Origin: Melioribacteraceae bacterium
Lineage (GTDB): Bacteria; Bacteroidota; Ignavibacteria; Ignavibacteriales; Melioribacteraceae
Direction of reading: 5' to 3'
Length of the DNA: 64,000 bases
Assembly (NCBI GenBank): GCA_026417375.1
Contig: JAOADJ010000018.1
Coordinates: 1 to 64,000, forward strand
The notes under the pieces were generated by a model. It was not told the DNA's origin. It made no database searches and saw only the letters and a program-made list of their open reading frames with translations. How positions within the stretch are numbered: the stretch's first letter is position 1; every line of letters begins with the position of its first letter. Positions 22,184 through 37,360 of this stretch are shown here, one piece after another. The translations under genes were made by a program, and so were the position numbers.

Positions 22184-22849
22184 AATATTTTCTTCATTTA
22201 TTTTAACAATATGAAGATCGTTATCATAAGGTTCAATTATAGGTTTTTTGATTGACGCTAATTTTTCAAGTATTAAATTAATTTCGCGCGAAGCGTTTTC
22301 GATAAAATCTATTCTTTTATTTATTACTTCTTTTGAAAACTCATCTTTTATTAACTCTCTTCTTATTGCTGCAACAGAAAGATTAATTTGGGTTAATGGT
22401 TGTTTAATTTCGTGATTAGCTGTAACAACAGTAGCAGCATAGGTTTTAATTTTTTCCATTTCAAGAAGCAATTTGTTCATTTCGCTAAAGCGGAGAGCGG
22501 AATTAATTCTTGCAAGCAATTCGGTTCTATTAAAAGGTTTTTTAACATAATCAAAAGCGCCGGCTTGTAAACCCGCTCTTGTATTTTCTGCTTCGGTTAA
22601 TGCTGTTAAAAGTATAATAGGAATTAATTTTGTTTTTTCTTGAGTTGTTAATTTTTTACAAACATCAAATCCAGAAATATCGGGCAAAATAATATCGAGT
22701 AAAATTAAATCGGGATTTTCTTCTTCAGCTTTTTGAATTCCCATGAGTCCATTATAAGCTTTAATTACTTCAAATCCTTCTTTTTCTAATCTATCTTGCA
22801 GAAGAAAAACATTATCCGGCAAATCATCAATTACTAAAATTTTTTTCAT
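22175..22849 (-). CDS. Response regulator with DHp/HisKA-like domain and no HATPase domain
   Basis: REC (VIDDLPDN, LILLDIILPDISGFDVC, KKPFNRTEL) followed by NHEIKQPLTQINLSVAAIRREL; ends without N/G boxes. Confidence 0.85.
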   Translation of the reverse strand: MKKILVIDDLPDNVFLLQDRLEKEGFEVIKAYNGLMGIQKAEEENPDLILLDIILPDISGFDVCKKLTTQEKTKLIPIILLTALTEAENTRAGLQAGAFDYVKKPFNRTELLARINSALRFSEMNKLLLEMEKIKTYAATVVTANHEIKQPLTQINLSVAAIRRELIKDEFSKEVINKRIDFIENASREINLILEKLASIKKPIIEPYDNDLHIVKINEENISN

Positions 22850-25800
22850 CTTTGTTTAAATATTTTTTGATTTTACTTATAAGTAGTTGAGAATTAATTG
22901 GTTTGGTAATTACATCGTTAAAACTATTTTTTTCAATAACATCTTTATTTTCTAGCATTGCATAAGCAGTTAAAGCCAAAATAGGTAAATTTTTAAATCG
23001 CTCATCGTTTCTAATTCTTTTTATTGTTTCAAATCCATCCATTTGAGGCATCATAATATCGAGTAAAATTAAATCGGGAGATATATGATTTAGCATCATT
23101 AAACATTCCATTCCATTATGCGCATAAATTGTATCACATTCTAACTCTTTTAAAAATTCTCCAACCGTAAATAATGCATCGTTATCGTCATCCACAACAA
23201 GAATTGTGGATTTTAATTTTAATGTTTTTTTGTTATTAATATTTTCATACTCGTCGGATATTTCAATATTATTTTCTATGTGTTTATTTAATTCTAATCT
23301 ATCTCTCAATGTTTTTAGAATATCCATCGGATGAAATTTAGCACGTTTAATTATTTCTAATGATTTTTTATTTAAATTCTTGAAAAGAATTTGGTCATAA
23401 CTTTCAGGTAATAATAGAATAAGAAAATTGTTTTTTAATATTTTATTATTGGAAATATTAAAACAAACATTCATTGTTTCATCTTTCAAAGAATCTACAT
23501 CAATAATTAAAATGTCATTTTTACTAACTTCATCTAACGAATTTGTTAAAATTATATTTTTATTCTGTAATGTATTATCATAATTTTTATTTGTAATCAG
23601 ATAAATTTTGTTTGTGTTTTTATACAATTGAATTTTAGGGATAATATAATTTAGCTTTTCATCAAGTTCTTTATTAATAATAAAATCATATATATTCGGT
23701 TCCCAACCAATTTTATCATCTTCGAGCATTATGGAATATAATATAATAGTCTCGTTATTAAATTTAGATTCTTTTATATCATAAATAATTTTCCAGTTTT
23801 CGTCGAGTGAATTAAGAATAATCGCATCATATTTATTGGAATTAATTTTATCTCTTGCGTGCTTATAATTGTTTATATATTCTGATTCGACTGAATATGT
23901 TTTTAAATAATCAACAAATAATTTTGCTGCTGAATCAGAATCTGAAAAAACTAAAATGTTTTTATTTTTATTTTCAGTTAAAGTAGTTAGAAAATATTCT
24001 TGTTTATCATCAATAACATCAAGAATAACATCATTTAATATGAAATAAAATTTTGAGCCTTTCCCTAATTCACTTTCTAAATACAATTCGCTATTCATTA
24101 ATTTCAAATATCTTTTACAAATTGCTAAGCCCAATCCGGCTCCACTATATTTTCTCGAGAAACTGCTATCAACTTGTTTGAATTCTTTGAAGATATTTTC
24201 CTTATCTTTTTCAGAAATACCAATTCCAGAGTCTTCAACTGTAACTTTTAAATTGTTATCCTCTTCAATTTCTATTTTTAAATTAACATAACCAGTTTCA
24301 GTAAATTTAATTGCGTTAACTACCAAATTTGAAATTACCTGTTCTATTTTATTTTTATCCGTATTAAGAAGTATGTTTTTATTTTTTGGCAAATCAATAT
24401 TGAGTTTCAAATTTTTTTCCTGAGATAACTGTTCAATAGAAGGATAAATTTCTTCAATTAGATCTGCAACAAAAAATGTTTCTTTTTTAAGTTCAATTTT
24501 CCCTGATTCTAATTTTGAGAATTCCAATATGTTATTAATTAACGATAATAATTTTTTACCATTTCTATTAATTATTTTAATTCTTTCTTTCACATTATTA
24601 TCAATTGATAAATTTTTTAACAACAATTCACTTAATCCATTTATCGAAATTAAAGGTGTTTTTAATTCATGCGACATGCTTGCAAGAAAATCCGATTTTA
24701 CTTTTGTTAACTGAACTGCGTGTTCTCTTTGCTTTTCAAGTTCTTCAGCTTTTTCTTTCAGTTGCTTATGAAGTTTTTTTAATTCTTCATTCTGATTTGT
24801 TATCTGTGCATTTTGTTTCTGGAATTCTTCATTTAATATTTTCAGTTCGTTGACAAGGTTTTCTAATTTTTCAAAAGAAGTGGCATTAATTATTCCAATA
24901 GCAAGTTGGTCATTAACAATTTTTAGATATTCTTTTACATCACTATTTGGTTTTTTTTCTGACGCTAATTCTAATATCGCTATTACTTCTTTATTGAATA
25001 TAATTGGAAATAATAACAAATATTTAATCTTTAAAGTTGTTATGCCAACTTTAACTTCCGGATAATTTTCATAAAAATTAAGTTCTATAAAATCAGCTTT
25101 ATTTATTACCGATAAATAAATATCCGATTGGTTTTCAAAAGATTTGTCAAAAGTTAATCCAAAGTTTGAAATGATTTTAAGTTTATTATTTTCATTCAAA
25201 TAAATTGCACCAAAGGAAACATCAACCGAAGAAATTATTTTCTGAAGTGCTGCATTGCATAAATCTTTCAATGTTTGCTTTTGATTAATAAGCGTAATGA
25301 AATCACTATAATCTTTTTCTCTTTTATTTTTTTGAACAATTTCATCTAACATTTTATTAACTGAATCACCAAAACTTCCGATTTCATCTTTCGTTATTAT
25401 AGGCACTCTTAAATCTAAATTTCCTTTTCTTGTTTCGGTTACAACGTTGTTCAACAACGATATTTGTTTTCTGAATTTATTTGTTAATAAAATTACAATT
25501 ATAAAAGTAACACCACTTCCAGCTATAATTATTATTAACATTAGCATTTGAAGTGTAGCTCTGAATTCAACCCCTTCTTTAAAAGATTGAAAAATTAAAA
25601 AGTTTACTTTTGAAAAAGGGAACAACAAATATTTAGGCGAATAAATTGATGATACAAAATCTGCATCATTTATTTCTTCAAAGAATAAATCAAAATTATT
25701 TTTCAACTTTAAATCTTTAACTGCAGAAATAATTGTTAAAAGTTTTTTTTGATTTTCTGATGGATTAGAAATTTCAACAGGTGAGTCATTTGAAATAAGT

Positions 25801-26285
25801 GCTATTTCTGCATTTATTTTTTCTGAAATAGAATTTAAAAATTTTGAATCAATAACTTTTCCAAAATAATACGTTTTTCCATTCGGAAACTGCTGATATC
25901 TTAATATCATTTGTGGATTGTTAAGAAAAAACTTGCTGAATGAATTTGAACGTATAGTTAAAAATGAATTTGTTTTAATAAAAAATTCATTTTTATTTAT
26001 AATGCTGTCATTGTCTAAAGTGAAAAGAAAATCAATCGAAGTGTTATTCAAAGTTTGATTAGAAATTTTGTTTGACTTAGATATTAATGAATTAAATTCT
26101 TCATCAATATTTTGTAATTCTAATTGAATGTTAAATGCAAAATTTGTTGTAGCATTTAATATTGCTTTTTCTTGTTGCTGCTTTATTACTTTACCTGCAA
26201 GCACATAAAAAATCAGCATAGATGAAATTGAAATAATCAAAACAATTAGGAAAGTTGCCAAAACAAATTTTGTATTAAGTTTCAT
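22827..26285 (-). CDS. Large membrane hybrid histidine kinase (TM-sensor-HAMP-GAF-coiled coil-HisKA-HATPase-degenerate REC(s)-REC)
   Basis: Two TM segments, HAMP (TRKGNLDLRVPIITKDEIGSFGDSVNKM), HELKTPLISI, VVNAIKF, DSGIGI, GAGLGLAI, terminal REC LVVDDDND/LILLDIMMPQMDG. Confidence 0.92.
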   Translation of the reverse strand: MKLNTKFVLATFLIVLIISISSMLIFYVLAGKVIKQQQEKAILNATTNFAFNIQLELQNIDEEFNSLISKSNKISNQTLNNTSIDFLFTLDNDSIINKNEFFIKTNSFLTIRSNSFSKFFLNNPQMILRYQQFPNGKTYYFGKVIDSKFLNSISEKINAEIALISNDSPVEISNPSENQKKLLTIISAVKDLKLKNNFDLFFEEINDADFVSSIYSPKYLLFPFSKVNFLIFQSFKEGVEFRATLQMLMLIIIIAGSGVTFIIVILLTNKFRKQISLLNNVVTETRKGNLDLRVPIITKDEIGSFGDSVNKMLDEIVQKNKREKDYSDFITLINQKQTLKDLCNAALQKIISSVDVSFGAIYLNENNKLKIISNFGLTFDKSFENQSDIYLSVINKADFIELNFYENYPEVKVGITTLKIKYLLLFPIIFNKEVIAILELASEKKPNSDVKEYLKIVNDQLAIGIINATSFEKLENLVNELKILNEEFQKQNAQITNQNEELKKLHKQLKEKAEELEKQREHAVQLTKVKSDFLASMSHELKTPLISINGLSELLLKNLSIDNNVKERIKIINRNGKKLLSLINNILEFSKLESGKIELKKETFFVADLIEEIYPSIEQLSQEKNLKLNIDLPKNKNILLNTDKNKIEQVISNLVVNAIKFTETGYVNLKIEIEEDNNLKVTVEDSGIGISEKDKENIFKEFKQVDSSFSRKYSGAGLGLAICKRYLKLMNSELYLESELGKGSKFYFILNDVILDVIDDKQEYFLTTLTENKNKNILVFSDSDSAAKLFVDYLKTYSVESEYINNYKHARDKINSNKYDAIILNSLDENWKIIYDIKESKFNNETIILYSIMLEDDKIGWEPNIYDFIINKELDEKLNYIIPKIQLYKNTNKIYLITNKNYDNTLQNKNIILTNSLDEVSKNDILIIDVDSLKDETMNVCFNISNNKILKNNFLILLLPESYDQILFKNLNKKSLEIIKRAKFHPMDILKTLRDRLELNKHIENNIEISDEYENINNKKTLKLKSTILVVDDDNDALFTVGEFLKELECDTIYAHNGMECLMMLNHISPDLILLDIMMPQMDGFETIKRIRNDERFKNLPILALTAYAMLENKDVIEKNSFNDVITKPINSQLLISKIKKYLNKDEKNFSN

Positions 26286-26331: not shown

Positions 26332-27591
26332 TTACTTTTCTTCTTCTTTCTTCTTTCCTTTTAATTCCTCTTTTGCTTTTTCTGTTTGATCTTGATATTC
26401 TTTCAAATCTTTTTGATGTAAAATTATCTCATCTTTCAAAGCTTCTTTCTTTTTAGCATTAATTCTTTCTTTTAAAGTTGGAAGAAGTTCAACTTTAATT
26501 AATGTTATAATCTCTTTAGTTGTTACATTAACCTGATCATATCCAAAAAGATAACGTAATCCTAAAACCCACCAGGGTAAATCTTTTAATATCGGAACAC
26601 CTCTGCGATTAGTTGTTTCTTCGTTAACTAATAATCCACCAATAACCGCTTCTTCACCATCTAATAAAAGTAAATTTGTAGTCACTTCTGTTTTTGGTTT
26701 TTCGGTTGTAATTGCACCCGGAATTACAGAGCTTCTTTCAATTCTAACCTTCAACATCACATAATCTACACCTTCTTCGTTAATAATATTTGGTGTTACT
26801 TCAATTATAGTTCCACTTTGATAAAATTTATCTATTAAATTACCAGCAAAATCTCTTTCTTTAATTGAAAAATCGGAACCCACTTGTGTTTTACCCTGCA
26901 TACCATTAATTGCAATTATAGTTGGACGGGAAATTATTTTGCCCAAATTTTCTTCTTCAAAAAATTTGAATAACCCTGTTGCAGTTCCATCAAATGTGTT
27001 AGCTAATTTAAAATTTATTTTTGGAGAAATCGAAAATTCAGGTGGGTTTTGAGTTGACTGAGTTCCACCACTTTGTTGTGTTTGTGTTTGTGCTGTAACT
27101 ATTTTTCCACCTAAACTAAGTCCCGATTTTGAAAGTAAAAATTCCCAATTAACTCCACGTTCTTTCATATCAGAAACACTTGCTTCAAAAATTAATGCAG
27201 AAATTTTTACTTCTCTTTCTGTTACAGGAACGTATTGTTCACGTGGCAAAGCTTCTTTTGATACATCTTTTCTTTTTACAATTAATGTTGATTCAGTTTC
27301 TTCTAATAATAAATTATTCAGTTGAACAATTATTAATAAAGCTTTTTTATATGGCATTTTATCTATTTCAACACCAATAGGAGAAGAAATATTTGGTTGC
27401 GATACAATTTTTTTGCCGGTTAATTTTTCACTTACTTTTGATAAAATTTCTATTGCTTGATTAAATGGTAAAGTTTCCGAAAGAGAAACAATTTCATCGG
27501 GATTTACATAACCTTTTAATTTTTCTTTGATATCAATTTGAGCCTGAAGGCAAAGCCCAAATAACATAAAAATTACAATAAACTTTTTCAT
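26332..27591 (-). CDS. Secretin-like protein (PilQ/GspD family), short form
   Basis: Signal peptide; one short N-terminal domain; VTEREVKISALIFEASVSDMKERGVNW, GKIISRPTIIAINGMQGKTQVGSD, EVTPNIIN, LLDGEEAVIGGLL. Confidence 0.88.
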   Translation of the reverse strand: MKKFIVIFMLFGLCLQAQIDIKEKLKGYVNPDEIVSLSETLPFNQAIEILSKVSEKLTGKKIVSQPNISSPIGVEIDKMPYKKALLIIVQLNNLLLEETESTLIVKRKDVSKEALPREQYVPVTEREVKISALIFEASVSDMKERGVNWEFLLSKSGLSLGGKIVTAQTQTQQSGGTQSTQNPPEFSISPKINFKLANTFDGTATGLFKFFEEENLGKIISRPTIIAINGMQGKTQVGSDFSIKERDFAGNLIDKFYQSGTIIEVTPNIINEEGVDYVMLKVRIERSSVIPGAITTEKPKTEVTTNLLLLDGEEAVIGGLLVNEETTNRRGVPILKDLPWWVLGLRYLFGYDQVNVTTKEIITLIKVELLPTLKERINAKKKEALKDEIILHQKDLKEYQDQTEKAKEELKGKKKEEEK

Positions 27592-27592
27592 T

Positions 27593-28489
27593 TTATTTAC
27601 CTGCTTTATTCTCTTTTTTCTCTTTCTGTAATTGAAGTTTTACATTTTCAATTATTCCACCTTTGTTCAGAACAAAATTAACTTCGTTGTTTTGATAATT
27701 GATATTAGTTAAATACCCTAAATAAACTTTATCACCTTCCCAAAGTAAATAAGTATTTCCGCTTGCATCCGATAAAAATGCACCATCCGGAATTAAAGCT
27801 AAAAGTTGTGCGGACTGAACATCAAGTAAACCATCTTTATTTGGTGGAATTTCCATTCTAATTAAAGGATAGAAAATATCATAAGCCGGATTTGGAGTTA
27901 AACGATTTTCAAATCCACCTTTAAAAGCAAATCTTTCATCATTTGAGAAATAAACTTTTGTCCTGAATTTAAAATTCACTAAATAATGTGGAGTTCCATC
28001 CTGTTCAACTTTAACATTATTCGATAATTCAACATTAGAAATCTTTTTTAAATATTTACTTTCTTCAATTGCATAAACTAAATGATAAAAATCATCAAAC
28101 TCGGCTGCACCATTTAAAATATAATTGTACATCGAAAAATTTGTTGATGGTTCAACATCCTGAAATTCAATATTAACATAAGAAAATGGAGAAAAGCTAT
28201 AAGTAACTTTATTTACAAAATCAAAAAATGCAGCTTGAGAAATGTTATATGGAATCACATACTTTCTATTTGCAAGAATGGAGTCTAACTGTGCTACCCG
28301 TGTTTGTAAAAATTTAAGTTGTTCTTTAAGTGCTTCTGTATCAAGCTGATAAAGTTTTAATTCCTTTAATGTTTTTTGTTTTTCAGCAATTTTTCCTTTT
28401 TGATACACAAAATCAAAAACGCCACCAATTAGAATTATTCCTAATAATATCAAAGCAATAATTACAGTATTTTTTGTTTTAGTTGTCAT
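27593..28489 (-). CDS. PilO-like protein with a C-terminal PilP/GspC-HR-like segment
   Basis: N-terminal TM plus coiled coil; C-terminal LIPDGAFLSDASGNTYLLWEGDKVYLGYLTNINYQNNEVNFVLNKG. Confidence 0.6.
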   Translation of the reverse strand: MTTKTKNTVIIALILLGIILIGGVFDFVYQKGKIAEKQKTLKELKLYQLDTEALKEQLKFLQTRVAQLDSILANRKYVIPYNISQAAFFDFVNKVTYSFSPFSYVNIEFQDVEPSTNFSMYNYILNGAAEFDDFYHLVYAIEESKYLKKISNVELSNNVKVEQDGTPHYLVNFKFRTKVYFSNDERFAFKGGFENRLTPNPAYDIFYPLIRMEIPPNKDGLLDVQSAQLLALIPDGAFLSDASGNTYLLWEGDKVYLGYLTNINYQNNEVNFVLNKGGIIENVKLQLQKEKKENKAGK

Positions 28490-30057
28490 TTAATTTTTGT
28501 TGAATCGTCAGACATTATATAATTCAAAGTAAAAGAAAATGCATCTTTTTCCCGCAGCGGTTCATAATTAATATTTCTTATAATAGAATTTTTATACAAA
28601 TCAGCAAATTCAGTTAATACACTTCTGGTCAAAGAATATCCGGTTAATTTTAATTCATCTTTAGTAACCGGTTCAATTTTGGTAATCCAGAAACTTCTTC
28701 TTCGTTCCATAAAATCACATAATCTAGTTAAATTTTTGTTCCAAACACCAGCACCAAAAGAAGCAGAATCAAGTATTGCTTGCGTAGCATCGAACGCATT
28801 AATTTTTGCATCGAGTGGAGTTATTTGATCAACTAATGCCTGATTTTCAAGCTGACGCTGTTTTAATCTTTCAATTTCAAGATCTATATCTTTCATTTCT
28901 TTAATGTTTTGAAGAATATGAAATGTAAAAAAGAATGTTGAAGCAAAAAGCAAAGGAATTAAAGCATAACCATGCCAAGCAAACTGAAATATTTTTTGAT
29001 TTTCAATAACAAACTTTGGAAGAAAATTTACACCTTTGTGTAATTTATCCTGCTCATCAAAATATTCTACTCCAACAGAAATTGGAATAGCAAAAAGAGC
29101 AAGATTTTTAACATCCTCTTCATTTAATCTCGATGTATCAAAATTTTCAAATTTAAGCTCAGTAACATTTGCTTCCGGGAATGTGCCATAAAAAGAAAGT
29201 ATTAAATTTTCAGATCGATCTTCGCCACAAATAATAATATTATCAAGTTTTGGAATTCCACCGTTCTCCATTTCGAGTAATATCTTAGAAAAATAAACAT
29301 CATATGTGTGAAGATTTTTTGTTCCTATATCAAGTGTACTACCAATATGTTTTAACTTTTGTCCATCCAAAAAAATTAATTTACTATACTCTTTACCTAT
29401 GTAAATAATTAAAGAATAATCTTCAGGGAAAAATTTATTACTCTTGGATACAAAATAAGCTAAAGGTAATTCAGCAGTTTTAATAGTAGGAATTTTCAAA
29501 AATCTTTTTTGGTTATAATTAGCCAGTTGGTTAACTAACCCCACGCATGGAAGTTCCCCTTCCAAATAAACTCCCAATAAAGTTTTTTCATCAACCTCAT
29601 AAGCATCTATCATATCAAGATCAATATTCAATCCTTTGGAAACAAGAAGGTCATTTTTAATTGCTTGTATTAATTTGTTTTTATTTTTTTCTTTCAAACC
29701 TTCATATACATGGTAATTTACAATCGGTTCGGTAACAACCGGAAGATAGTCTAATTTGGTTACGTTTAAATCTGCAATTGCCGAATGAAGCAAACTTACA
29801 TCGGAGATATTTTCAGTTTGTGAAGGGGTAATATCGCCTGAATATGCTTCTAAGCTATCAAAAGAGAGGTCTTCGCTAAGTGATTGATTTTCAATTTCGG
29901 CTAAAGCACCCCGTTTTGAAGTTGTTTCAGAAAAACGCAAAGCTCTGGTCATAGTTAAAGATGCTGTTCTTAAAATTTTAATACCATCTTTATCTTTCGA
30001 CATTACCGCAAGCTTTGCATCACTACCTTCACAGTATAAACAAACTATTGGTTTCAA
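28486..30057 (-). CDS. PilM-PilN-like fusion protein
   Basis: N-terminal ~350-aa actin-like/PilM-like soluble region (SLIIYIGKEYSKLIFLDGQ), then TM (YALIPLLFASTFFFTFHIL), coiled coil and a PilN-like domain. Confidence 0.65.
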   Translation of the reverse strand: MKPIVCLYCEGSDAKLAVMSKDKDGIKILRTASLTMTRALRFSETTSKRGALAEIENQSLSEDLSFDSLEAYSGDITPSQTENISDVSLLHSAIADLNVTKLDYLPVVTEPIVNYHVYEGLKEKNKNKLIQAIKNDLLVSKGLNIDLDMIDAYEVDEKTLLGVYLEGELPCVGLVNQLANYNQKRFLKIPTIKTAELPLAYFVSKSNKFFPEDYSLIIYIGKEYSKLIFLDGQKLKHIGSTLDIGTKNLHTYDVYFSKILLEMENGGIPKLDNIIICGEDRSENLILSFYGTFPEANVTELKFENFDTSRLNEEDVKNLALFAIPISVGVEYFDEQDKLHKGVNFLPKFVIENQKIFQFAWHGYALIPLLFASTFFFTFHILQNIKEMKDIDLEIERLKQRQLENQALVDQITPLDAKINAFDATQAILDSASFGAGVWNKNLTRLCDFMERRRSFWITKIEPVTKDELKLTGYSLTRSVLTEFADLYKNSIIRNINYEPLREKDAFSFTLNYIMSDDSTKIK

Positions 30058-30059
30058 TA

Positions 30060-31286
30060 CTATGCCTTCAACAGTTGGAGAATTCTTGTTTTATTATTCG
30101 CATAAGCTACAGCATTTTCTTTTGAAATTTTCTTTTCAGTATATAAACGTAACAAATCTTGTTCCATAGTTATCATGCCCTGTGGACCGCCTTGATTAAT
30201 CATCATGTAAATTTCACTTGTATTATTGTTCTTTATTGCCGCTTTAACACTTGGAGTAACAATTAAAACTTCTTTTGCTAATACTCTTTTACCATCTAAA
30301 CTTGGAACTAATTTTTGTGATACAACAGAAATTAAAACATCAGCTAATCTATTTCTTACACGTTCTTGTTCGTTAGGATTAACTTCCGCAATTATTCTAT
30401 CTATTGATTCAACTGCACTTGAAGTATGTAAAGTTGAAAAAACTTTATGTCCTGTATCAGTTACTTCGAGTGCGGCTAATATTGTTTCCGGATCTCTCAT
30501 TTCTCCGATTACAATTATATCTGGATCTTGTCTTAAAGATTGAACAACACCATCTTTAAATGAAAGCACATCACGCCCAACTTCACGATGTTTTATAATT
30601 GCCTTTCTTGAATGATGAACATATTCAATTGGAGATGCAATAATAACAATATGGCAGGGATCAAAATCGTTGTGATAATCAATTATTGCATCGAGAGTGG
30701 TTGATTTACCTGAGCCTGTAATTCCTGTTACTAACGACAATCCGAATTTAATATAATTATGGCTCATCGTTTTAACAGCAAATGGGTGGAATTCAAGAGA
30801 TTCAAGAGGACGAACAGTTGCTTGAATTGCTCTCATATTTAAAGTTAAAGAATCAAGGTCAAAATATGCATCGCAACGAAATCTAAGATTTTTATTTATT
30901 CTCTTATCCAAAAATGTATAACTGAAATCTAGGTTTCTATTTTCAAGTAAAAATGAAATTTGGTTTTTGTTTAAAAAAGAAATGATAAGCGTTGAAGCTT
31001 CATCAACAGTAAGTTGAGGCATATCAGCAGCTCTTTCTTTCTTACCAAAAATTCTAAACCAAATGTAATTTTGAGTTCCAAATCCACCAAGTTCAATATC
31101 CGAAGCTTGTTTATCAACCATAGTTTCTAAAACGTAATTCATAAATTGTAGCAATGTTAATCGCTGTTCATTTGTAATATCATAAATATGTTCAGCAATA
31201 TAGTTTACTTTTTCTGCCCCTAAAACTGTAGGAGGAATTTTGGAAACAAAATTTGCTAAAATTTGTTTTGCTTCATTAATCATCAA
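30060..31286 (-). CDS. pilT: PilT-like secretion/retraction ATPase
   Basis: GITGSGKSTTLDAIIDY Walker A, LRQDPDIIVIGEMRDPETI Walker B, TGHKVFSTLHTSSA His box. Confidence 0.92.
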   Translation of the reverse strand: MMINEAKQILANFVSKIPPTVLGAEKVNYIAEHIYDITNEQRLTLLQFMNYVLETMVDKQASDIELGGFGTQNYIWFRIFGKKERAADMPQLTVDEASTLIISFLNKNQISFLLENRNLDFSYTFLDKRINKNLRFRCDAYFDLDSLTLNMRAIQATVRPLESLEFHPFAVKTMSHNYIKFGLSLVTGITGSGKSTTLDAIIDYHNDFDPCHIVIIASPIEYVHHSRKAIIKHREVGRDVLSFKDGVVQSLRQDPDIIVIGEMRDPETILAALEVTDTGHKVFSTLHTSSAVESIDRIIAEVNPNEQERVRNRLADVLISVVSQKLVPSLDGKRVLAKEVLIVTPSVKAAIKNNNTSEIYMMINQGGPQGMITMEQDLLRLYTEKKISKENAVAYANNKTRILQLLKA

Positions 31287-31339: not shown

Positions 31340-33124
31340 TTAATCTTCCATTGTTGCGCCAATTACTTCCTGAATAGAAGTTAAACCAAGTTTAGCTTTT
31401 TCAAAACCGGATTCTCTCAAGCTTGCTGTTCCATCTTTTCTTGCCTGTTCACGAATTGCTTCTTCATCAACTTCTTCACCACTCCGAACTATTATTCTTC
31501 TAATGTCTTTTGTAAAATATAAAGCTTCGTGAATTGCCATTCTCCCTTTGTAACCTGTGTGATTACATCTATCACATCCAACTGCTTCATATAGTTCTGC
31601 ATTTACCCAATCCTTGTAATCTAAACCTGCAGTTGTAACATATTCTTCTACATTAGTTACTTTCTTTTTACAATCACATAGTTTTCTGATAAGGCGTTGT
31701 GCTACAATTATATTAATTGCATAAGCAATTAAAAATGGTTCAACACCCATTTTATACAAACGTGCGACAGCACTTGGTGCATCGTTTGTATGCAATGTTG
31801 AAAATGTTAAGTGACCTGTATTTGCAAGTTTAATAGCTGTTTCTGCGGTTTCTTTATCACGCATTTCACCAACAAGCACAATATCAGGATCGTGACGAAG
31901 TATAGCGCGAATTGCTTGTTCGAAATTCATTTTGTGACCGATTTTTAACTGGCGAGCACCTTCTATAACATATTCAACCGGGTCTTCAACAGTTAACACA
32001 TTTTTTGTGGGATCAATTACCTGATATAAAGCTGCAATTAATGTTGTTGATTTTCCACTTCCCGTTGGTCCGGTTAATATAATCATTCCTTGTGGTTGAT
32101 TAATTGCTTTAACAAATGCAGTTTGTGCATAACCTGTTAAACCAAGTTTACTTAAATCTTTTATAACTTTTCTATCATCAAGAATACGAATTACAATACT
32201 TTCAAATTTATTTTTTAATTCAGTTCCAACAGTTGGTAAAACCGAAACACGAAACCGAATTATATGTCCATCAATTTCTCTTTGAATAAAACCATCTTGA
32301 GCTTTTTCTCTTTCAAAACGATCTAATCCTTTAGAACGATCTTTAACAACAGCCATTACGGCTTCTGGTAAAGTGTTTTCCTGTACATGCCAAAGTTGAA
32401 GTTTTCCATCAAGACGAAAATGTATTTCAGTTTTGTTTCCTGATTTAGGAATAATATGAATATCACTCACACCTTTTCTTGTTCCTTCAACTAAAGCTGC
32501 TTCTACTAAATTTATTAAAGCACTTTTGTTTATTTCTGCATCCAGTTCTTCTTCATTTACACTTGCTTCTTCTTCAACTACATGAAATTCTTCTGCTGAT
32601 TCCTGAATCATTTTCAAGTATTCATTTTCAGCAGTTGTAATTAAAGCCATTATTTTTTCGTAATCTTTTTTTCTTAAGTAATTAACTTCATATTTTTTTG
32701 AATTGAGAGAAGAAGCAATTTTAGCAAGATATCTATCTGTAGGATCAACTGCAGCAAGAATTAATTTGTCTTTTACTTTATCATCAAATTTGTATGGAAT
32801 AACACGATGTTCGATCAACATTTTTTTAACATCCTCTCCCTGCTTACTCATCAGTTCTTTAATTTCTTTTAATCTTTCATCTGTTAAATCATCTGGATGA
32901 ATATTAAGTTCTTTAAATGCATAAAGAACGGCAACTTCTCTAAAAATTAAATCGTGATCAAATTTAAATTCATCAACTAAAATTTGAGCAAGATTTCTTT
33001 TAAGTTTAGTTTGGTCGGCATCTTTTATTTTTAAAGCTTGTTCTAAAATTTTAAGATCGATTATTCCTTTCTTCAAAAGTAAATAACCAATTTTGTCAAG
33101 CATTTCAAGTTGTGATTCTAACAT
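31340..33124 (-). CDS. pilB: PilB/GspE-family assembly ATPase
   Basis: GPTGSGKSTTLIAAL, VEDPVEYV, LRHDPDIVLVGEMRDKETAE, CNHTGYKGRMAIHEAL. Confidence 0.95.
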   Translation of the reverse strand: MLESQLEMLDKIGYLLLKKGIIDLKILEQALKIKDADQTKLKRNLAQILVDEFKFDHDLIFREVAVLYAFKELNIHPDDLTDERLKEIKELMSKQGEDVKKMLIEHRVIPYKFDDKVKDKLILAAVDPTDRYLAKIASSLNSKKYEVNYLRKKDYEKIMALITTAENEYLKMIQESAEEFHVVEEEASVNEEELDAEINKSALINLVEAALVEGTRKGVSDIHIIPKSGNKTEIHFRLDGKLQLWHVQENTLPEAVMAVVKDRSKGLDRFEREKAQDGFIQREIDGHIIRFRVSVLPTVGTELKNKFESIVIRILDDRKVIKDLSKLGLTGYAQTAFVKAINQPQGMIILTGPTGSGKSTTLIAALYQVIDPTKNVLTVEDPVEYVIEGARQLKIGHKMNFEQAIRAILRHDPDIVLVGEMRDKETAETAIKLANTGHLTFSTLHTNDAPSAVARLYKMGVEPFLIAYAINIIVAQRLIRKLCDCKKKVTNVEEYVTTAGLDYKDWVNAELYEAVGCDRCNHTGYKGRMAIHEALYFTKDIRRIIVRSGEEVDEEAIREQARKDGTASLRESGFEKAKLGLTSIQEVIGATMED

Positions 33125-33133
33125 AAAAACCTC

Positions 33134-34477
33134 TTATTGCATTACTGGTGGTTTAGGACTAATTGTTGCCGTTTCAGCAGAGACTAAAGTTAAACCAATC
33201 ATTACAATCATAATAACCATTGCAATAAAAACCTGAATTAATTCTATAATATTTTTTAACCGGTAAACAGTTTCACTTTCATAATAATTAGCAAGTTGAA
33301 GTGCCGTATTTTTAATTGTACCTGTTTCTTCTCCGGAATGAAAACGTGAGATAGCAGTTTCAGTAAAAACTCCACTTGCTTCAAAAGCTTCTGTTATGCC
33401 CGCACCACGTTTAATCATTAATGGAATTGCAACATCTTTAATTTGTCTTTCAAAATATTCATTTCCAGCAGCTTCTGCAGCAATTCTTATTGGTTCAATA
33501 CTTTCTGCAGAGCCACTATAAAGTGTATAAAATACACGACAAAAAACTTCAATCAATGTTTTATGAATGAGTGAACCCATAACAGGAATTTTCAGCATGT
33601 ATTTATCAACAAGATATTTACCTTTTTTTGTTTTAGCAAATTGCCACAAACCAATTGGTGGAATAATAAAAGCAAGAAAAACTAAAAGCATATTGTTCAT
33701 TAAAAAGTCACTAATAACTAATGTTGATGCGGTAAGTGGCGGAAGTTCAATTTTAAATTTAACAAATAATTTTGCTGTTTCAGGGAAAATATATCCGACA
33801 TAAAAAATCACTGCTAAGAACAAAACAAATAAAGTTACTAAAGGAGTAATAAGAGCACTTCTTAAATTCTTTCTAAACTCTTGTTGACGTTCGAGAAACT
33901 TAGCAGTAGCTTTATAAATTTCTGCCATGTTACCACTTTTAGAAGCAAGTCCAAGCATATATGCTGTAAATTTTCCAAACACAGATTGATAGCGTAAAAA
34001 TGTTGTTTCGCTATCTGCACCTTTTTTTAATTCTCCATTAATTTGCTTTAAAGTTTCTTTTAAAGTTTTGTTTTGTATATCGTTTATTAACAAAGTTAAT
34101 ATTTCAGAATATGGTAATTTTTGTTCGAGTAGTTCGGCACTAATTTTAACAAAGGAAACTATTTCTTGTTGTGGTGGTTTTAAATTAAAATCAAGTAATT
34201 TTCTGTTGATTGAAATAACTTCATAACCAAGTTTTCTAAGAGCATTAGCAACTTCTTCTTTATTAAAAGCTCTCTGTTCACCAATAATTGGTTTTTCTTT
34301 TCCTTTTTTAATTTTATAAAGAAAGGCAACTTTTTTTTCAATCTTCTGAATTTTTAATTGATTTTTTTCCGCAAGCTTTTGAATTTTCTTTTTAGCTTCA
34401 CTGAAAGATGGTTCGGTGAAAGTTCCGCTTAATATTTGACCATTTGATTTTTGAGCTGTAAATCTTACTTCGACCAT
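33134..34477 (-). CDS. pilC: PilC/GspF inner-membrane platform protein
   Basis: T2SSF-type repeats: LLEQKLPYSEILTLL, SKSGNMAEIYKATAKFLE, SGEETGTIKNTALQLANYYESE; TM segments. Confidence 0.92.
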   Translation of the reverse strand: MVEVRFTAQKSNGQILSGTFTEPSFSEAKKKIQKLAEKNQLKIQKIEKKVAFLYKIKKGKEKPIIGEQRAFNKEEVANALRKLGYEVISINRKLLDFNLKPPQQEIVSFVKISAELLEQKLPYSEILTLLINDIQNKTLKETLKQINGELKKGADSETTFLRYQSVFGKFTAYMLGLASKSGNMAEIYKATAKFLERQQEFRKNLRSALITPLVTLFVLFLAVIFYVGYIFPETAKLFVKFKIELPPLTASTLVISDFLMNNMLLVFLAFIIPPIGLWQFAKTKKGKYLVDKYMLKIPVMGSLIHKTLIEVFCRVFYTLYSGSAESIEPIRIAAEAAGNEYFERQIKDVAIPLMIKRGAGITEAFEASGVFTETAISRFHSGEETGTIKNTALQLANYYESETVYRLKNIIELIQVFIAMVIMIVMIGLTLVSAETATISPKPPVMQ

Positions 34478-34498: not shown

Positions 34499-34533
34499 AA
34501 AAAAAGCCGATAGTAAAAACTATCGGCTTTAAA
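34499..34533 (-). terminator. Intrinsic terminator between the pilin genes and pilC
   Basis: Perfect 9-bp stem GCCGATAGT-AAAA-ACTATCGGC (34506-34527); on the minus strand it is followed by seven Ts. Confidence 0.85.
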
Positions 34534-34555: not shown

Positions 34556-34942
34556 TTAATTATTAATTGTAGTAGATGTAATTCTATCTGGCCCAACCAC
34601 CATTGTAACTCTTACGTTTGTTGTTCCATTATTTCCTTTTTCATTACCGGTTCCAACTAATGTAACAGATTGAGCTGCTACAGTTGCAGTATAAACACCA
34701 TTACCAGTAGTATCTAAAGCACCTGGAAGTGTCCATCCTGTGAATGTATTTCCACCACCACCAAGAGCAGTTGGTTTTCTATAATATTGTTGTGCTAATG
34801 ATGCTAAGTTTGTTAAGTCTGCAATAACTGCATCTCTATTAGCTTGAGAACTGCTTGCTGTAAATACGTTAATACCAACTACAACAGCGATACCAACAAT
34901 GATAACGCCAAGAACGATAAGTAATAATTGTTGTTGACCCAT
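34556..34942 (-). CDS. Pilin-like protein with MGQQQ N-terminus
   Basis: MGQQQLLLIVLGVIIVGIAVVVGINVF hydrophobic helix, LALGGGG-type motif KPTALGGGGNTFTGW; AGGAG RBS before ATG. Confidence 0.75.
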   Translation of the reverse strand: MGQQQLLLIVLGVIIVGIAVVVGINVFTASSSQANRDAVIADLTNLASLAQQYYRKPTALGGGGNTFTGWTLPGALDTTGNGVYTATVAAQSVTLVGTGNEKGNNGTTNVRVTMVVGPDRITSTTINN

Positions 34943-34994
34943 AATGTAACTCCTATTTTGTTATTGATGATTTGTTAATTTATCAGTTAAAGAA

Positions 34995-35375
34995 TTAATT
35001 AATGTTTACAGTTCTATAATAATTTGGATAAACAGAAATTTTAACTTTTAAGCTATCAACACCTGTTACAACTTCGTTACCCACTGCCAAGATTACGACA
35101 CTATCATCATACACTTGAGCAATGTAATGCCCGGCAGCAGTAACTTGCAATTCAGGTGCAATTGACCAACCTGTAAATTTTCTTCCACCGCCACCTAATG
35201 CTAATGGTTTCAAATAATAATTTTGTGCCATAGCAGCTAAATTTACCAGTTCATTTGTAATTATTGATCTTTTACTTTCAATTGCGTTTGATTTAAAAAG
35301 ATTTATTCCGACAAAAATTGCAACACCAACTATTAAAGTTCCTAAAAGAATTAATAAAAGTTGTTGTTGACCCAA
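34995..35375 (-). CDS. Pilin-like protein with MGQQQ N-terminus (tandem paralog)
   Basis: MGQQQLLLILLGTLIVGVAIFVGINLF, KPLALGGGGRKFTGW; TTG start preceded by GGAG. Confidence 0.75.
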   Translation of the reverse strand: MGQQQLLLILLGTLIVGVAIFVGINLFKSNAIESKRSIITNELVNLAAMAQNYYLKPLALGGGGRKFTGWSIAPELQVTAAGHYIAQVYDDSVVILAVGNEVVTGVDSLKVKISVYPNYYRTVNIN

Positions 35376-35593: not shown

Positions 35594-37360
35594 TTACCGA
35601 ACTTTAATGTGAAGTTCTTTTAATTGATGTTCATCTACATTTGATGGAGAATCATCCATTAAAGACATTCCACTTGAAGTTTTAGGAAAAGCAATTACAT
35701 CACGGATTGAATGTTTACCGGCAAATAACATTGCTAATCGGTCAAAACCAAATGCAATTCCACCGTGTGGCGGAGCACCATATTTGAAAGCACCCATTAA
35801 AAATCCAAACTTTTCGTTTGCTTCTTTTTCATCAATACCAAGAGTTTTAAACATTTTTGCTTGTAATTCTGAATTATGAATTCTAATACTTCCACCTGCT
35901 ATTTCATTTCCATTCATTACCAAATCATAAGCTCTTGCTCTTACTTTAGATGGATCGGTATCCATTAAAGGAATATCTTCAACTTTAGGAGAAGTAAACG
36001 GATGATGCATAGCATAAAAACGTTTTGTTTCATCATCCCACTCAAATAAAGGAAAATCTGTAACCCAAAGCAGTTTAGGATCGACATCTTCTTTAATTAA
36101 ATCCATTCTCTTAGCCATTTCTAATCTTAAGGAGCCCATTATAGAAAGAGTTTTATATTTATTTCCACTTAGAATAAAAATTAAATCTCCATTTTCTGCA
36201 TTAAGAGTTTTAATTATGTTTTGTTTTTCCTCATCAGTCAAAAATTTTGCTATTGGTGCATCTAATTCATTTTCTTTAACACGCATCCAAATTAAACCAC
36301 CAGCACCAAGTTTTTTAACAAAATCTGTTAGCACATCTAATTGATTTCTTGTATATTCTCCACAACCTTTTGCAAGCAAACCAGTTATAATTCCATTGTT
36401 TTCAATTGCTTCTTTAAATACTCTAAATTCTGTGTTTTGAAAAATATTGTTCAACGTTACCATTTCTAATTCAAAACGGAGATCTGGTTTATCGCTGCCA
36501 TATTTTTCCATTGCCTCATCATATGTAAGTCTTTTTAAAGGAGTTTCTAAATCTTTATTTAAAATTTCTTTGAAGAATACTTTCATTAATCCTTCTACAA
36601 TTTCAAAAACATCTTCTACATCAACAAAAGACATTTCAACATCTATCTGTGTAAATTCATATTGACGATCAGCTCTTAAATCTTCATCACGAAAACATTT
36701 TACAATTTGGAAATATCTATCTAGACCGGAAACCATTAAGATTTGTTTGTAAGTTTGTGGTGATTGTGGAAGCGCATAAAATTTTCCTTTATGTAATCTG
36801 CTTGGAACAAGAAAATCGCGAGCACCTTCCGGAGTGCTTTTCATTAATATAGGAGTTTCTACTTCAACAAAATTATTTTGGTCGAAATATTTTCTTGTTA
36901 ATAAATACATTTTATGACGAAGTAAAAGATTTTTTTGCATTTCAGATCTTCTTAGATCTAAATACCTGTATTTCAATCTCAAATCTTCATGAACATCAAT
37001 ATTATCTTCAATTGGAAAAGGTGTTGTTTCTGATGTATTTAGAATTATTAAACTATCAGCAACCACATCAATATTACCAGTTGGAATATTTGGATTTTCA
37101 GTTCCTTCGGGTCTTTTTCTTACTTTTCCTTCAACAGAAATTACAAATTCATTTCTAAGTTTTTTTGCCTGTTCATGTAAATTTTGATTATGAGAAGGTT
37201 CAAAAACAATTTGAGTCATTCCATATCTATCTCTCAGTTCAATAAAAATTACACCTCCAAGGTCTCTTCTTATTGCAACCCAACCATTTAATACAACATT
37301 TTCACCAATATTTATTTCACGTAATTCACCACATGTATGTGTTCTTTTCTTAAACTTCAT
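35594..37360 (-). CDS. aspS: Aspartyl-tRNA synthetase
   Basis: RTHTCGELRE, VNGWVAIRRDLGGVIFIELRDRYG, RYLDLRR, FRDEDLRADRQYEFTQIDVEMSF, GGIAFGFDRL. Confidence 0.97.
   Translation of the reverse strand: MKFKKRTHTCGELREINIGENVVLNGWVAIRRDLGGVIFIELRDRYGMTQIVFEPSHNQNLHEQAKKLRNEFVISVEGKVRKRPEGTENPNIPTGNIDVVADSLIILNTSETTPFPIEDNIDVHEDLRLKYRYLDLRRSEMQKNLLLRHKMYLLTRKYFDQNNFVEVETPILMKSTPEGARDFLVPSRLHKGKFYALPQSPQTYKQILMVSGLDRYFQIVKCFRDEDLRADRQYEFTQIDVEMSFVDVEDVFEIVEGLMKVFFKEILNKDLETPLKRLTYDEAMEKYGSDKPDLRFELEMVTLNNIFQNTEFRVFKEAIENNGIITGLLAKGCGEYTRNQLDVLTDFVKKLGAGGLIWMRVKENELDAPIAKFLTDEEKQNIIKTLNAENGDLIFILSGNKYKTLSIMGSLRLEMAKRMDLIKEDVDPKLLWVTDFPLFEWDDETKRFYAMHHPFTSPKVEDIPLMDTDPSKVRARAYDLVMNGNEIAGGSIRIHNSELQAKMFKTLGIDEKEANEKFGFLMGAFKYGAPPHGGIAFGFDRLAMLFAGKHSIRDVIAFPKTSSGMSLMDDSPSNVDEHQLKELHIKVR

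Follow-up and report, generated by a model that had tools for sequence, protein, structure and literature searches.

The locus described here raises the question of whether a type IV pilus can be assembled from pilins that carry no leader peptide. Prepilin peptidase is treated as a universal core component of type IV filaments, one of four or five such components (PMC6668835, PMC10191384, PMC10790768). Known prepilin leaders comprise 6-26 residues, Glu5 mutants of canonical systems do not homopolymerize, and the Nanoarchaeota are the sole phylum listed without a detectable peptidase (PMC4471445). The reason for the requirement of Glu5 and N-methylation in pilins is a question of long standing. 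The window examined in the present study, i.e., the whole stretch of 64 kb, is contig C27 of a source genome of 2.83 Mb (58 contigs, 99% complete) from the Melioribacteraceae, order Ignavibacteriales.

Tandem pilin genes without a leader

A sequence-only reading of the window had called attention to two tandem open reading frames at 34556-35375, each encoding an MGQQQLLLI N-terminus with neither a basic leader nor a Glu5. Both frames were confirmed at these positions, on the minus strand, and the missing leader and Glu5 proved to be shared by their relatives. The two genes are as follows:

34556-34942, minus strand: predicted leaderless type IV pilin 1 (MGQQQ family), ATG start, 128 aa, MGQQQLLLIVLG..., identified by its open reading frame and ribosome-binding site
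34995-35375, minus strand: predicted leaderless type IV pilin 2 (MGQQQ family), TTG start, 126 aa, MGQQQLLLILLG...

The two proteins share the N-terminal sequence M-G-Q-Q-Q-L-L-L-I, and pilin 2 is a paralogue of pilin 1 (46% identical), the latter being the probable major subunit. Shine-Dalgarno-like sequences are located 5' of both starts (AGGAG-TTACATT-ATG for pilin 1, and GGAG followed by 7 nt and TTG for pilin 2). According to the sequence-only reading, an upstream in-frame start with a canonical leader would have spoken against its interpretation. Such a start can be ruled out for both pilins, since the in-frame region 5' of each gene consists of just six codons before a stop (QNRSYI and ENWRKK, respectively), none of them a start codon, and encodes no canonical leader.

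The pattern is rare in the DNA examined. When the open reading frames on both strands of the window were scanned for an uncharged N-terminus followed by a hydrophobic segment, just these two pilins were recovered. A DNA pattern encoding MGxQQLL occurs at three sites in the whole source genome, all of them pilin genes (two at the locus and one paralogue), compared to no sites for the reversed control pattern.

The third paralogue, which begins with MGSQQLLLI, is located away from the type IV pilus operon (contig C35 of the source genome, 30371-30748; L260:9866-10249, minus strand). It is followed directly by genes for an ECF sigma factor (Sigma70_r2/r4) and a zf-HC2/FecR-like anti-sigma protein. 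Four further genomes of the family (L261-L264) retain this triad of pilin, sigma factor and anti-sigma protein, which could represent a surface-sensing or pilin-coupled signaling module.

Conservation of the pilin N-terminus

The N-terminal sequence was assessed in a set of 262 distinct pilin genes, contributed both by the order and by over ten additional families of the class and phylum. The start M-G-x-Q-Q is found in 260 of these relatives and M-G-Q-Q-Q in 249, and translation is initiated at the same position by ATG, GTG or TTG. Residue 2 is Gly (260) or Ala (2), and never Ser, Thr, Val, Pro or Cys. If the proteins were cut behind Gly2, position 5 of the mature pilin would be occupied by Leu in 254 relatives, by Ile, Val, Met or Phe in eight and by Glu in none, and residues 2-20 are devoid of Lys, Arg and His in 259. 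Where type IV pilins have a hydrophilic leader of some 6-26 residues with a terminal Gly or Ala, a single residue (Met) precedes Gly2, as is the case in 260 of the 262 relatives. Neither pilin 1 nor pilin 2 exhibits the N_methyl signature (PF07963).

Within the protein, conservation is highest at residues 1-5, with a mean entropy of 0.12 bits among the 262 relatives versus 2.24 bits in the globular part. The N-terminus draws on both Gln codons and all six Leu codons; because synonymous codons vary in this way, the conservation is at the level of the protein, and a DNA-level motif as its cause can be dismissed. A signal peptidase I precursor was likewise rejected, since 259 of the 262 relatives have no basic n-region and the hydrophobic segment is the most, rather than the least, conserved part.

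Some departures are evident in family f32, in which two pilin paralogues (L203:1092-1463 and L239:888-1262, both minus strand) begin with M-A-N-K-E rather than M-G-Q-Q-Q. Of the two genomes concerned, one has no A24 peptidase.

Predicted fold and sequence-family relationships

The AlphaFold2 model of pilin 1 (mean pLDDT 86.1) displays the "lollipop" form of type IV pilins, with a helix at residues 2-55 (~54 residues) followed by four beta strands; the model thus includes both the long alpha-1 helix and the C-terminal beta-sheet head of this class. Type IV pilins make up its top three matches in the PDB, albeit at weak E-values (best 0.086); the best fold matches are PilV of Neisseria and PilA of Acinetobacter, again with modest E-values.

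At the sequence level, the MGQQQ pilins are covered by no Pfam, NCBIfam or PDB family. Comparison of their profile with that of the canonical pilins of the same order was not significant. Against the PDB, the sole pilin family reached was geopilin (E=0.4, not significant), whereas a canonical pilin profile reaches the PDB pilins at 1e-13. As to whether Gly2 corresponds to Phe1 of canonical pilins, the geopilin and hhalign matches are non-significant and their registers differ.

The pilin operon and its machine

The pilin genes are followed on the minus strand by the components of a pilus machine:

34503-34530, minus strand: terminator-like hairpin at the pilin 1/pilC junction, 12 bp stem with a T run
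33134-34477, minus strand: PilC, inner-membrane platform protein (T2SSF E=6e-28)
31340-33124, minus strand: PilB, extension ATPase (T2SSE E=9e-103; Walker A GPTGSGKST; tetracysteine zinc motif)
30060-31286, minus strand: PilT, retraction ATPase (TIGR01420, 332 bits, over the curated cut-off of 319)
28486-30057, minus strand: PilM/PilN-like fused inner-membrane assembly protein, assigned by position, synteny and a weak match to NF045709 (E=0.0065; Amuc_1101 PilM-like family)
27593-28489, minus strand: PilO-like alignment-complex protein, assigned by position, a single N-terminal TM helix and synteny, with no Pfam match above cut-off
26332-27591, minus strand: PilQ/MshL-type secretin (Secretin PF00263 E=1e-22; PilQ TIGR02515 E=1e-21)
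22827-26285, minus strand: hybrid histidine kinase (HAMP, GAF, HisKA, HATPase and receiver domains, by Pfam), candidate regulator of the pilus

Starting from aspS, the minus-strand order is therefore pilin 2, pilin 1, pilC, pilB, pilT, the PilM/N-like gene, the PilO-like gene, the secretin and the hybrid histidine kinase. The Walker A and tetracysteine zinc motifs of PilB were read directly from its sequence, and its closest NCBIfam model is that of PilB (TIGR02538, 405 bits, under the curated cut-off). The PilB and PilC homologues of a type IVa machine are encoded together with the pilins, as are its PilT retraction ATPase (TIGR01420) and a clear secretin. The PilMN and PilO counterparts are recognized just from their location and from weak matches.

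The order pilin(s)-pilC-pilB-pilT-pilMN-pilO-secretin is kept in all 15 pilin loci read in the order and, with insertions, in families f5, f10, f14, f29 and f32 of the class and phylum. Matches to the hybrid histidine kinase occur 3' of the secretin in most of the 15 loci. In a phylum sample of 397 genomes, an MGQQQ pilin is present in 132 of the 133 genomes that carry a PilC of this lineage (membership defined as E < 1e-49), and the genomes often contain two to six copies of the pilin gene. The sequence-only reading would have been overturned by homologues unlinked to type IV pilus genes; the opposite is observed, namely tight linkage to pilC, pilB and the remainder of the operon.

Hairpins of differing sequence are found at the pilin/pilC junction in 9 of 14 loci, compared to 11 of 420 shuffles (2.6%). 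The hairpin is likely to raise pilin transcripts over those of the machine, which would fit a structural subunit produced in excess over its machine.

Several additional features of these loci were recorded. The aspartyl-tRNA synthetase gene aspS (35594-37360) is located directly 5' of the pilin operon, and many of the 15 loci read in the order also have it on the 5' side; this neighborhood is conserved, and a functional link is not obvious. In other families, three to six open reading frames with at most a few uncharged residues before a hydrophobic helix occupy the interval between pilB and pilT (L268:8188-10602, minus strand; L271:11962-14244, minus strand; L266:6373-11246, plus strand). 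They begin, for example, with MGTGQTLL, MNTGQLLL, MGKMALL or MTVMLDII, belong to no Pfam family and are candidate leaderless minor pilins. In the single-contig genome G021, pilC (L044:10544-11740) contains several in-frame stops or frameshifts, the other operon genes being intact, due either to sequencing error or to decay.

Distribution of prepilin peptidase

The sequence-only reading had advised that an A24 prepilin peptidase be sought in the genome. None was found in the source genome at E<=0.001 using PF01478, a search that detects A24 in 12 of 14 control genomes. With the threshold relaxed to E<=10, the source genome and five single-contig relatives yielded chance-level matches only (10-13 bits, versus a cut-off of 26.5), while in a relative of the same family, serving as positive control, a real A24 was found at 1.9e-11. 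The archaeal-type peptidase domain PF06847 is absent from the source genome, which also has no convincing candidate for the A24 N-domain (PF06750), a model that gives weak matches everywhere, including control genomes such as Bacteroides. The conserved pilin operon contains no peptidase gene. The PilD of a type IVa machine is thus missing from a 99% complete genome and from single-contig relatives alike, and the latter rule out that an A24 was overlooked owing to an incomplete MAG.

Among 146 genomes of the Ignavibacteriales, 131 carry an MGQQQ pilin and seven an A24, such that ~95% of the order is without A24. Canonical N_methyl pilins, of which the source genome has none, occur in exactly the seven A24 genomes plus one (Fisher p=3e-11). 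This near-exact overlap indicates that, within the order, the peptidase accompanies the ordinary pilins but not the MGQQQ pilins. Of the 397 genomes of the phylum sample, 51 carry a detected A24, and 119 of the 134 MGQQQ pilin-bearing genomes are without it; presence of the pilin is not associated with A24 in either direction (15/134 vs 36/263, p=0.53). The sequence-only reading had proposed that the proteins either follow an unusual rule of processing or are pilin-like subunits that remain uncleaved. This view is supported, and the absence of A24 favors the lack of cleavage by a prepilin peptidase.

A second, canonical T2SS/T4P-like cluster is complete in a minority of the Ignavibacteriales. 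In the five examples read (L054-L058), an A24 gene and a further, divergent pair of PilB and PilC lie within a few kb of the genes for N_methyl pilins, which have Glu5 and basic leaders ending in Gly. The patchy spread of this cluster suggests that it was gained horizontally. Like the Cytophaga-type T2SS (PMC5553014), it shares PilB/PilC homologues and pilins with the MGQQQ system and possesses an A24. It is nevertheless separate, its PilB (36-41%) and PilC (21-25%) being divergent, and the Gly-ending basic leaders and Glu5 of its pilins, as well as the A24 (7 of 146 genomes), are lacking in the MGQQQ system.

Proposed assembly and alternative explanations

The best explanation of the sequences and the structural model is that pilins 1 and 2 are putative "born mature" subunits of a predicted retractile type IVa-like pilus. 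It appears fairly likely that these are leaderless pilins, trimmed at most of their Met, which a type IVa-like machine would polymerize without prepilin peptidase or N-methylation. As with canonical prepilins, the hydrophobic helix and the short, uncharged segment ahead of it would be inserted by SRP/Sec such that the N-terminus faces the cytoplasm. Methionine aminopeptidase removes Met before Gly, and also accepts Ser, Thr, Val, Pro and Cys. Because residue 2 is Gly or Ala, this enzyme could take Met1 off the MGQQQ pilins during translation and leave Gly as the N-terminus. Met1 removal would then do for free what PilD does elsewhere; the membrane aspartic protease would be unneeded and N-methylation would be absent. 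PilB and PilC would raise the pilin helix from the membrane into the hydrophobic filament core, entry to which would be barred by a long charged leader; the MGQQQ pilins would have none to remove. The fiber would exit via the secretin and be retracted by PilT. The three invariant neutral glutamines would sit where canonical pilins have the pair formed by the Phe1 amine and Glu5. The tri-glutamine probably satisfies this contact site by hydrogen bonds. Against the model, Glu5 mutants of canonical systems fail to homopolymerize (PMC4471445), such that a homopolymer without Glu5 would need compensating contacts; the weak E-values of the fold matches and the non-significant profile comparison with canonical pilins also speak against it.

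The chief doubt concerns position 2, whose limitation to Gly or Ala matches the -1 rule of prepilin peptidases, as if something still cuts; a small packing space at the start of the helix would account for it equally well. Accordingly, the pilins might be cut after Gly2 by a protease outside the A24 family (e.g., a rhomboid or an unrecognized intramembrane protease), with Gln3, probably as pyro-glutamate, becoming mature residue 1. The sequence G-Q-x-x recalls archaeal class III sites. Moreover, all 262 relatives have at residue 2 either Gly or Ala, the classical -1 residues of class III signal peptides (PMC10191384). Such a leader would have just two residues, uncharged, as opposed to the 6-26 residues of known prepilins (PMC4471445), the conserved operon includes no peptidase gene, and the source genome offers no candidate of the A24 or archaeal A24 type and no convincing one for the A24 N-domain; we regard a cut after Gly2 as rather unlikely. 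The calculated average masses for Met removal, a cut after Gly2 and the pyro-Glu form are 12934.4, 12877.4 and 12860.4 for pilin 1, and 13467.5, 13410.5 and 13393.4 for pilin 2, respectively.

An otherwise normal system with odd leaders, whose divergent A24 escapes Pfam, would be in keeping with the fact that certain prepilin peptidases are encoded away from the pilus locus and that MSHA loci borrow one (PMC6668835). We give this little credence, in view of the chance-level scores of the source genome and its five single-contig relatives, compared to clear detection by the same model in relatives of the same family (~1e-11) and in the 51 A24-positive genomes of the phylum sample. In addition, detectable A24 accompanies canonical rather than MGQQQ pilins, and the latter have no leader to cut. 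It is similarly very improbable that the locus is a degenerate T4P/T2SS-like one and that the two proteins next to it are just small bitopic membrane proteins of an ordinary kind, which form no filament, even if they have no N_methyl signature or Pfam family and no experimental pilus is known from the organism. Against this stand the near one-to-one co-occurrence with the PilC lineage, the conserved operon order, the pilin-type fold of the model, and the hairpin that would lift pilin over machine expression. The frequent presence of two to six gene copies, together with maximal conservation of the helix N-terminus, is moreover the pattern of a pilin core.

Comparison with known systems

The leaderless, Met-trimmed system favored here parallels the type IVa pilus (PilA/PilB/PilC/PilT/PilMNO/PilQ/PilD). 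The two share a secretin, PilO-like and PilM/N-like proteins, PilT, PilB, PilC and pilins, here in one operon, and a pilin fold comprising an N-terminal helix of ~54 residues and a four-stranded sheet. The MGQQQ system differs in being without PilD/A24, a leader peptide, Glu5 and the N_methyl signature. We consider that it would work like a type IVa pilus, although the leader and Glu5 of the pilin and the PilD of the machine were sought and not found.

In genomes with MSHA, the peptidase is supplied by another system, and the leader of MshA is canonical. In the present case, by contrast, the whole genome is without a peptidase. MSHA loci likewise have no prepilin peptidase within the locus (PMC6668835), and the secretin described here also matches MshL. 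Geopilin (Geobacter PilA-N) is, like the MGQQQ pilins, a small pilin. It has a normal leader and Glu5. The archaeal type IV pilins resemble the MGQQQ pilins in that Glu5 is often absent and N-methylation is lacking (PMC4471445), but they retain a leader as well as an A24-type peptidase (PibD, FlaK), whose PF06847 domain was not found in the source genome. In the open-access literature searched, we found no description of leaderless pilins or of pili made without prepilin peptidase, and no report of extension or retraction of surface filaments for the MGQQQ system.

Implications

The suspicion raised by the sequence-only reading is supported, and extends from two genes to a lineage-wide system. 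On balance, the sequences and the model lead us to favor the view that a whole deep branch of the Bacteroidota may assemble functional type IV pili from leaderless, Glu5-less and unmethylated pilins without a prepilin peptidase. If true, leader cleavage, N-methylation and the Glu5/Phe1 pair, three traits regarded as common to type IV filaments in general, would be dispensable, with a tri-glutamine N-terminus in their stead, and the candidate leaderless minor pilins of some families would obey the same rule.

In a widespread lineage, the major pilin would escape annotation pipelines that define pilins by the class III signal peptide. Melioribacter roseus, which was described as having neither pilA nor pilD, and therefore as probably being without a complete pilus, provides an example. 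A natural system that possesses PilB, PilC and PilT but no leader, peptidase or Glu5 would reveal the true requirements of pilins and would constitute a ready-made test bed.
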